The notes under the pieces: generated by a model
What the model was told of the DNA's origin: nothing
Database searches by the model: none
Seen by the model: the letters and a program-made list of their open reading frames with translations, nothing else
Assembly (NCBI GenBank): GCA_949294735.1
Contig: CASFII010000007.1
Location: 124,001 to 188,000, forward strand
Origin: an uncultured Coriobacteriaceae bacterium
Lineage (GTDB): Bacteria > Actinomycetota > Coriobacteriia > Coriobacteriales > Eggerthellaceae
Length of the DNA stretch: 64,000 nucleotides
Reading direction: 5' to 3'
Shown here: positions 35,425-38,397 of the stretch, piece after piece
Position numbering within the stretch: position 1 is the first letter of the stretch
Layout of the letters: each line of letters begins with the position of its first letter
Position numbers and translations under genes: made by a program

Positions 35425-35475
35425 CCTTTTACATTAGGCAGAATAATCAGCGCGTATTCGGAAAGTCGAAGTGGT

Positions 35476-36534
35476 ATGACCCGAAATATCAACGAAATTG
35501 TTGCCGCAGTTGAAAAACCCCCTACAAGTTTTGAAGAATATCTTGACTGTTACGCCACTCAGGTAGGCGAACTGGTTAATACGTTTATTCCTCATGGCAG
35601 CCATCCCGACATGGACAAATACCTGTATGGGCCTCTGGCAAAATACAGCGAAAATGGTGGCAAACGTCATCGTCCGCTTATTTGCTTTGCTGCTTGTTTG
35701 GCTGTTGGCGGAGATATGGTGAAGGCAACCAGTGCTGCTGCCGCCATTGAACATTTCCACACTGCTGCGCTTATCCATGATGATATTGCTGACGAAGCCG
35801 AACTGCGCCGTGGTGAGCCTTGCCTCCATTTAACGGAAGGCTTAGGTCTTGCAATCAACATGGGTGACCTGGCGCTTTCGTTGGTAAACGGCACGGTGGT
35901 AAATGACCCAAGCTTGGATGACCATATTAAAGTTCGTGTTGTTACTGAACTTATTGAAATGACGCGCCGTACAGTTGAAGGTCAGGCTCTTGACCTAGGT
36001 TGGGCACGTGATGGTCGTTACGACATTACGCCCGAAGACTATCTCATTATGGCAACGCATAAAACTGCTCATTATTCTGGCGCTGTTCCTTTGGCGGTAG
36101 GTGCCATTATTGGTGGCGGTTCAGAAATGGAAATTGAAGCGCTTCGCAACTATGGTCTGGATACAGGTTTAGCATTCCAGATTCAAGATGACCTGCTGAA
36201 CTTAGTTGGCGCCGAGGAAAGTACTAAGAAAGACTTCCGTAGTGACATCACCGAAGGTAAGCGCACGCTTATGGTAGTGCACGCTCTTCAGCACTTGGAA
36301 GGTAGCAAACGCGATCGCCTGGTTGAAATCTTATCTTCCCGTGAAAAAGACCAGGAAGTATTGGCTGAAGCGGTTGCTATCATGGAAGAAAGTGGCTCCA
36401 TTGAATACGCCCGCAACTATGCGGAAAATTTGACGAGCATTGCAAAGAATCGTTTAGTAGACATGATTACACCTTCCGATGCGCGCAATTTGCTTATTTC
36501 CATGGCAGACTACTTCGTAAACCGCCTGCGCTAA
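35476..36534 (+). CDS. Polyprenyl diphosphate synthase (trans-isoprenyl transferase)
   Basis: A 352-residue all-alpha synthase. Conserved parts are 'GGKRHRPLICFAACLAVGG' (about 61-79), the first Asp-rich motif in 'LIHDDIADEAELRRGEP' (about 97) and the second in 'FQIQDDLLNLVGAEE' (about 236), where the usual DDxxD reads DDLLN. It condenses IPP units into a C40-C50-type chain for menaquinone or wall carriers; chain length cannot be predicted safely. I chose the ATG at 35476 because the longer frame runs through the tRNA. The ribosome site (GGAAAG) is weak. The gene may be expressed from the tRNA transcript 51 bp upstream. Confidence 0.9.
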   Translation: MTRNINEIVAAVEKPPTSFEEYLDCYATQVGELVNTFIPHGSHPDMDKYLYGPLAKYSENGGKRHRPLICFAACLAVGGDMVKATSAAAAIEHFHTAALIHDDIADEAELRRGEPCLHLTEGLGLAINMGDLALSLVNGTVVNDPSLDDHIKVRVVTELIEMTRRTVEGQALDLGWARDGRYDITPEDYLIMATHKTAHYSGAVPLAVGAIIGGGSEMEIEALRNYGLDTGLAFQIQDDLLNLVGAEESTKKDFRSDITEGKRTLMVVHALQHLEGSKRDRLVEILSSREKDQEVLAEAVAIMEESGSIEYARNYAENLTSIAKNRLVDMITPSDARNLLISMADYFVNRLR

Positions 36535-37005: not shown

Positions 37006-37929
37006 ATGGAGACTATTACATTACAGAGCACCGGTGCAGCAGTTGAGGACGTCCAACAAAGGTTGGCGGTTCTTGGCTTGCTCTCCGAAAACGACATTGA
37101 CGGCAATTTCGGCGATATTACTGCTCGCGCCGTTCGTGCTTTTTGCCGTCAAAATGGATTAGAAGAAACCGACGAAGTTGACGAACGTGTTTGGTCTGCG
37201 CTGGTGGACGCAACCTTCCGCCTGGGTGACCGTACGCTGTATCTTCGTATGCCGTATTTCCACGGGCAAGATGTCAAGGAATTGCAACAAGCATTAGGTG
37301 CACTGGGGTTTGCTTGCGGGCCGATTGATGGCATCTTTGGAGCGTACACTGAGCTTGCACTTCGTAAATTCCAAATGAACCTAGGTCTTCCTAGCGACGG
37401 CATTGCAGGCGCCTACACCTATTCTGCAATTCGCAACTTGCATCATTCATGGGAAGGTAAAGTGGTCACCCACGAAACCATCCACCTAGGGTTTGCGCGT
37501 GCTGCTAGCGTTTTGGAGCGAAATGCTCTGTGCTTATTTGGCACCAATGACTTCACGCGAAGCGTAGCTTCTCGTATGTCTAACTTGGCTTTAGCAACGA
37601 ATCCTGCTTCTAAAATCCTGAGCGCTGATTCGCTTCTCGTAAAGCCTGATGAATCCATGCTTTTGGTGCATATCGTTGTTCCTGAAGACACAACACAAAG
37701 CAACATTCCTCGCGTGAGCTTTGACAGCGAAAACTCGTTGGCTTTACGTCTGCTTACCGCCATAGAAGCGGTAGAGCAAAACCACCCTCAGCGAATTGGG
37801 CTCGAGCTCCCTGGAACCGTTTGGGAAGATGCTGGCGCAGGACGTTCGGCGCAGCACTATGCTATTACGTTGTTAGATGCGCTATGTACCGCACTGGCGC
37901 GTCGTGAAATGAAAAACGAAGGAAGGTAG
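37006..37929 (+). CDS. CwlM-like protein: two peptidoglycan-binding domains and a degenerate amidase-like domain
   Basis: A 307-residue protein from the ATG at 37006; an in-frame TTG at 36982 would lie inside the -10 box. Two PG_binding_1 domains (about 7-68 and 78-143) contain 'VQQRLAVLGLLSENDIDGNFG' split around residue 20, and 'LRKFQMNLGLPSDG'. The junction 'ATFRLGDRTLYLRMPYFHG' closely resembles the same junction in actinobacterial CwlM. CwlM then has an Amidase_3 domain, but here the C-terminal 160 residues lack the DPGHGG-type His and the catalytic Glu region. No signal peptide is present, so it is cytosolic. In mycobacteria CwlM regulates MurA rather than cutting peptidoglycan; a similar regulatory role is my inference. 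The next gene follows after 3 bp. Confidence 0.75.
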   Translation: METITLQSTGAAVEDVQQRLAVLGLLSENDIDGNFGDITARAVRAFCRQNGLEETDEVDERVWSALVDATFRLGDRTLYLRMPYFHGQDVKELQQALGALGFACGPIDGIFGAYTELALRKFQMNLGLPSDGIAGAYTYSAIRNLHHSWEGKVVTHETIHLGFARAASVLERNALCLFGTNDFTRSVASRMSNLALATNPASKILSADSLLVKPDESMLLVHIVVPEDTTQSNIPRVSFDSENSLALRLLTAIEAVEQNHPQRIGLELPGTVWEDAGAGRSAQHYAITLLDALCTALARREMKNEGR

Positions 37930-37932
37930 ACC

Positions 37933-38397
37933 ATGGCTGAAGACATGAACAACCAGGTATCCAACAATCAACAACCGCAGGCACCTCAGATGCCCGCTAA
38001 TCAGCCTCCAATGGGAGCTCCGAATGCTCCTGCTGGCTACTATGCACAGAATCCTTATGGAGCGCCGCAAGGCCAACCGCAGGGTCAGCCTCAACCTCAG
38101 CCGCAGCCTCAACCGATGCCGGGTGTACAGTTTGTTCCCGCACCAGCACCTCTTATGCAGCTGACGGGTGGCATGAAGTTTGGCTGGGCTTTAGTAGGAA
38201 TTGGCTTTGGTCTGTGGGGTATTTTGCTTGCTTGGCTTGTAAACGTCGACAAAATGCCACAGGTTAAAAGTGATGCCATCAAGTTCACGGTTATAGGCTT
38301 TGTGGTAAACATCGGTCTTATTTTCTTGGCAACGCTTGCTATTGGTGGACTTCTTGCTGCTTCCGTTGCCGCTGTGGGTAATTACGCCACTTTCTAG
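37933..38397 (+). CDS. Pro/Gln-rich small two-span membrane protein
   Basis: A 154-residue protein. Residues 1-72 are Pro, Gln, Asn and Met-rich with a 'QPQGQPQPQPQPQP' run, then two membrane helices (about 82-104 and 117-143) joined by 'VDKMPQVKSDAIK'. The layout resembles DUF4190-like or TM2-like small membrane proteins with proline-rich cytosolic tails. Function unknown. It is co-transcribed with the CwlM-like gene (3-bp gap; the ribosome site GAAGGTAGA overlaps that gene's stop), which hints at a wall-related task. Confidence 0.75.
   Translation: MAEDMNNQVSNNQQPQAPQMPANQPPMGAPNAPAGYYAQNPYGAPQGQPQGQPQPQPQPQPMPGVQFVPAPAPLMQLTGGMKFGWALVGIGFGLWGILLAWLVNVDKMPQVKSDAIKFTVIGFVVNIGLIFLATLAIGGLLAASVAAVGNYATF

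Follow-up and report, generated by a model that had tools for sequence, protein, structure and literature searches.

A CwlM-type protein of the Coriobacteriia without an amidase active site, and the probable descent of its C-terminal domain from Amidase_3

In Mycobacterium tuberculosis, CwlM (Rv3915) is a cytoplasmic regulator of MurA (PMC4946905, PMC6180346, PMC12723410). The window, the whole stretch of 64,000 nucleotides from an uncultured Coriobacteriaceae bacterium analyzed here, encodes a protein with features by which CwlM has been defined, namely, two N-terminal peptidoglycan-binding domains and the lack of a secretion signal, but without a profile-detectable amidase domain after the binding domains, which belongs to the same definition (PMC4946905). 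The locus thus raises the question of what the C-terminal half of this protein is and what the protein could do without an active site.

The start residue of the protein is common to its relatives, and PG_binding_1 was matched in two stretches (1e-30, Pfam). In the structure model, the first binding domain superposed on the N-terminal domain of SleB with a Z score of 14.7 (0.8 Å over 70 residues). Linker residues G74, D75, R76, L78, and Y79 were invariant in 33 Coriobacteriia sequences. Farther along the Coriobacteriia alignment, L145, H147, and W149 of the LHHSWEGK motif were invariant, while K152 of that motif, R190 in the VASRMSNLAL helix, and Q283, A286, D291, and C294 in the last helix were nearly so. 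Because a binding domain begins in the first ten residues and no strongly hydrophobic stretch occurs in the first 40 (the best 12-residue stretch averages 1.2 in a crude hydropathy test), we concluded that there is no signal peptide, and the protein is probably located in the cytoplasm. The features of the gene and its product are collected in Table 1. A promoter scan around the start of the gene gave nothing above chance. Directly downstream, at positions 37933-38397, lies a gene for a 154-aa protein, Pro/Gln-rich and then hydrophobic, which has no confident Pfam match and adjoins the CwlM-type gene only in close relatives.

Table 1. Features of the CwlM-type gene, its product, and its upstream neighbor (positions in the window)
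Feature	Position	Strand	Evidence or remark
CwlM-type gene, 307 aa plus stop	37006..37929	+	ATG at 37006; found in 136/138 genomes of the family
First peptidoglycan-binding domain, about residues 7-66	37024..37203	+	Pfam PG_binding_1/PG_binding_2; match to SleB N-terminal domain
RLGDRTLY linker between the binding domains, residues 72-79	37219..37242	+	Coriobacteriia alignment
Second peptidoglycan-binding domain, residues 87-141	37264..37428	+	Pfam PG_binding_1, best stretch
LHHSWEGK motif, residues 145-152	37438..37461	+	Replaces the linker of amidase-bearing homologues
C-terminal alpha/beta domain, residues 162-305, probably a decayed Amidase_3 lacking the zinc ligands	37489..37920	+	hhalign, element order, VIA-align
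VASRMSNLAL helix	37564..37593	+	Putative equivalent of 'DLGxRxxNLLELLGA' in amidase-bearing homologues (hhalign)
Last helix, SAQHYAITLLDALC	37846..37887	+	Putative equivalent of 'RQKIAVAVFDGI' in amidase-bearing homologues (hhalign)
Polyprenyl synthetase, upstream neighbor (context only)	35470..36534	+	Pfam 5.6e-65

The 163 C-terminal residues (145-307), searched alone, gave no hits, either in Pfam (E<=1) or in NCBIfam (E<=10), and a Pfam search with the CwlM-type protein gave no match to PF01520 (Amidase_3) at E<=1. None of the three zinc ligands (H, E, H) or the catalytic E of Amidase_3 (motif DxGH, E, SxH, E) was found in the Coriobacteriia alignment. The original prediction, of a CwlM-type protein with two binding domains joined by RLGDRTLY, a C-terminal half stripped of its active-site motifs, and no signal peptide, was therefore borne out in its description of the protein. 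As a separate observation, the whole assembly (G000, 86% complete) contained no Amidase_3 match at E<=1.

The source genome (1.34 Mb, 86% complete) has a single CwlM-type copy. Its closest relatives with names are Slackia and Eggerthellaceae, so that the window very probably comes from this family. Such a protein was found in 136 of the 138 genomes of the window's family (92/92 among the good ones), where it is kept across 48 genera, and in 244 of the 248 genomes of the class Coriobacteriia (219/220 among the good ones). The loss of the active site spans the whole class and is neither a local oddity nor the decay of one copy. Mean identity inside the family was 75% for the N half and 73% for the C half; between families of the class, it was 60% and 28%, respectively. 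Values of dN/dS from close pairs were 0.116 for the N half and 0.110 for the C half. The C-terminal domain is under purifying selection and, since both halves are similarly conserved inside the family with a dN/dS of about 0.11, must be in use, though drifting.

Parts of the protein have nevertheless been dispensed with in individual lineages. In two genomes of one family (f14), it stops directly behind the binding pair, at 167-168 residues, and in one of these an NlpC/P60 gene starts about 35 bases 3' of the shortened CwlM-type gene, so that the C-terminal domain is gone rather than frame-shifted. In one genus (g41), the first binding domain is absent (12 genomes, five of them read, L224-L228). 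The only parts never lost in the f14 and g41 examples were the linker and the second binding domain. We also noted that the CwlM-type proteins without any C-terminal domain at L215 and L216 (genomes G200 and G193) are flanked by GGDEF, chemotaxis, NlpC/P60, and PilT genes and that the g41 protein has its start immediately ahead of the linker motif, with polyprenyl synthetase directly preceding its gene (L224-L228).

What the C-terminal domain descends from was addressed by profile-profile alignment. Set against all amidase-type domains with hhalign, the Coriobacteriia domain aligned over 135 columns with a score of 27.5, where 100 column shuffles gave no more than 14.5; with the partly decayed domains as the target, the score was 32.5 over 142 columns and the shuffle maximum 16.0. 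Among 22 unrelated families from the same loci, one scored 22.1 (over 80 columns) and all others less than 15. Against intact amidases alone, the score was 16.6 to 19, near the shuffle level, so that the bridge to Amidase_3 consists of the partly decayed intermediates, together with the broad alignment. The alignment was colinear from the first strand through the last helix, with 'ASRMSNLALAT' set against 'GLRFGNLLELLGA' and 'AQHYAITLLDALC' against 'RQKIAVAVFDGIK'.

Structure models, built with four sequences only, were supportive of the Amidase_3 fold but not decisive. The AlphaFold2 model had a pLDDT of 68 (mostly 60-85 for the blocks of the C-terminal domain), and its predicted order of elements in that domain (strand, helix, strand, strand, strand, helix, strand, helix) would be that of Amidase_3 minus the second helix and would otherwise agree with the enzymes Rv3717, CwlV, AmiC2, and AmiB. 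VIA-align placed 4m6h (Rv3717) first, with a Z score of 7.5 (4.3 Å over 109 residues), followed by 5emi (AmiC2) at 7.0 and 1jwq (CwlV) and 8c0j (AmiB) at 6.8; lumazine synthase came next at 6.7, tied with the amidases. With a domain-only model (pLDDT 58), no amidase was found by Foldseek or VIA-align, and there was no Amidase_3 among the matches that Foldseek listed for the full and domain-only models. A SIS-type sugar isomerase fold, present in weak Foldseek rows, was rejected, with an rmsd of around 9-19 Å and no class-wide glycine motif. Unlike the Amidase_3 enzymes, the CwlM-type protein lacks the zinc ligands, the catalytic Glu, the signal peptide, and, as modeled, the second helix.

Intermediate states were found outside the class. 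With a search profile made from 33 Coriobacteriia proteins, homologues were detected in 260 of 296 genomes of the phylum, the match covering mostly the first 150 residues of open reading frames of about 330-400 residues. Six of ten such homologues that were scanned contained Amidase_3, at 62 to 162 bits: it was at full strength in L112 and L113 (158 and 162 bits) and L120 (129) and weaker in L108 (102), L106 (83), and L110 (62). In the other four (L105, L117, L173, and L181), it was below detection in the profile scan, as it is in the Coriobacteriia. The homologues L112, L113, and L120, from other actinobacterial classes, have the N-terminal half and the linker motif in common with the Coriobacteriia protein but differ from it in keeping Amidase_3 (129-162 bits) with the zinc-site residues. 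Among 65 non-Coriobacteriia sequences, all four zinc-site residues were present in 28 and not in the remaining 37. In a tree of the N-terminal half, built on few columns and weak in its deep forks, the Coriobacteriia formed one clade (support 100/99), and the state of the zinc ligands required 10-11 changes, at least 7 of these being forced by well-supported branches. The zinc ligands have been lost repeatedly across the phylum, in agreement with the report that only some CwlM homologues conserve the canonical ligands (PMC4946905). The class-wide loss and its parallels elsewhere in the phylum go beyond what had been described for the single protein.

An NlpC/P60 peptidase gene follows the CwlM-type gene in 15 of 20 Coriobacteriia loci, in many of them followed in turn by PilT. 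Some CwlM homologues of other actinobacterial classes share these neighbors: among amidase-bearing homologues, intact or partly decayed, NlpC/P60 was found next to L110, L111, L112, L114, L122, and L124, and PilT also lay near L110, L114, and L122. Given this shared synteny, the genes are likely to be positional orthologues. In the window's own family, the neighbor is a polyprenyl synthetase in place of NlpC/P60; a polyprenyl synthetase also lies near the gene in the Coriobacteriia loci L031, L033, L199, L201, L202, L212, L217, and L218.

We compared the protein with its mycobacterial counterpart on the basis of the published CwlM architecture and the phylum homologues. Like M. tuberculosis CwlM, it starts with two peptidoglycan-binding domains, lacks a signal peptide, and has an apparently amidase-derived domain without full zinc ligands, and PknB, FhaA, and MurA are encoded in the source genome. 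Unlike that of M. tuberculosis, however, the amidase-derived domain is shorter and not recognizable by profile. A phospho-Thr tail and a REEEL helix are both needed for the stimulation of MurA by M. tuberculosis CwlM in vitro (PMC12723410; see also PMC4946905); the helix contacts MurA (PMC12723410), and the phosphorylated tail is bound by FhaA (PMC6180346). A PTG/TGT tail was found in the last 40 residues of 1 of 99 Coriobacteriia proteins, and the window's protein, which ends with the last helix, has none. Likewise, a test on sequence only detected a REEEL-like linker motif in 1 of the 99, the window's protein having LHHSWEGK in its place. The source genome has one clear copy of MurA (543 bits) and an operon for FhaA, FhaB, PstP, a fusion of RodA with a penicillin-binding protein, and a four-PASTA kinase; FhaA_N was present in 114 of 119 genomes of the class. 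Its MurJ-like protein falls slightly under the curated cutoff and, unlike its counterpart in the M. tuberculosis setting, lacks the C-terminal cytoplasmic linker and pseudokinase region.

Taken together, these results favor, with a probability of roughly 0.7, a Coriobacteriia version of the cytoplasmic CwlM family in which a decayed Amidase_3 has been kept as a noncatalytic part of a regulator or scaffold. The conserved core would be the tandem binding domains and the RLGDRTLY linker, and the C-terminal Amidase_3 would have been retained after loss of its zinc site and second helix. Such a protein may act without catalysis, in docking or sensing in the cytoplasm: through its pair of binding domains, it would contact either a protein of the precursor pathway or a peptidoglycan precursor and in this way tune precursor supply; any phosphorylation would have to use sites other than the mycobacterial tail. 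Since the set of partners is present but the tail and the REEEL-like motif are absent, a noncatalytic regulator or scaffold in precursor synthesis is the most likely role, in keeping with the stripped-down regulatory form that the original prediction had considered. Activation of MurA in the mycobacterial manner, in which phosphorylation by a PASTA kinase would enable the protein to activate MurA and to dock on FhaA or MurJ, appears less likely: MurA, FhaA, PstP, and the four-PASTA kinase are all encoded, and FhaA_N is widespread in the class, but the two elements needed in M. tuberculosis (PMC4946905, PMC12723410) are almost entirely missing from the Coriobacteriia proteins, and the MurJ-like protein lacks the linker and pseudokinase region.

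The other proposal of the original prediction, a new domain swap, would make the C-terminal domain an acquisition unrelated to Amidase_3. Although no Pfam or NCBIfam profile matched the domain and the top Foldseek rows held no Amidase_3, we consider this reading unlikely because the colinear profile alignment is well above the shuffles, the modeled element order and the best structure matches lean toward Amidase_3, the synteny is common to amidase-bearing homologues, and graded intermediates such as L173, L105, and L117 exist. We infer that the Coriobacteriia domain descends from Amidase_3. When residues 145-307 were checked against Amidase_3, as had been proposed, Pfam was negative, hhalign with the decayed intermediates was positive, and the fold match, at a Z score of about 7, was tied with lumazine synthase. 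Strong purifying selection might suggest that the domain has remained catalytic through an active site that is hidden or of another kind. This is very improbable, given that C-half identity between families is 28% (N half, 60%), that the alignment contains no conserved polar cluster resembling a metal site, and that the domain has been lost in two f14 genomes. The fast evolution of the C-terminal half between families could also be taken for a functionless gene in decay, but near-universal presence and a dN/dS of about 0.11 make this scarcely credible.

In a gut-associated class, a CwlM-type protein that has no amidase active site, phospho-tail, or MurA contact helix is kept almost universally, and the Coriobacteriia can be regarded as a natural experiment on which part of CwlM does the ancestral job. 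Our tentative and rather speculative suggestion is that the binding pair and RLGDRTLY linker are the ancestral working part of the CwlM of the phylum, an intracellular sensor or scaffold needing neither an amidase fold nor a phospho-tail, that the amidase domain was dismantled many times in parallel, and that the Coriobacteriia core uses another partner. In the papers searched, CwlM and the Coriobacteriia were never mentioned together. An earlier survey of CwlM required a detectable amidase domain and could therefore not have seen the Coriobacteriia proteins (PMC4946905).

Further genes were noted in the source assembly (G000:C6). The fusion of RodA/FtsW to a penicillin-binding transpeptidase in the pknB operon is a 917-aa open reading frame (L221:4681-7431). 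At L222:2504-3871, adjacent to recO and the gene for a KH-domain GTPase, lies a gene for a protein that combines a zinc ribbon with three PASTA domains and lacks a kinase domain. The MurJ-like open reading frame (L223:742-3069; 775 aa, start uncertain) carries a long polar stretch N-terminal to its transporter part and is followed by an ATP-grasp-like open reading frame, named by eye.
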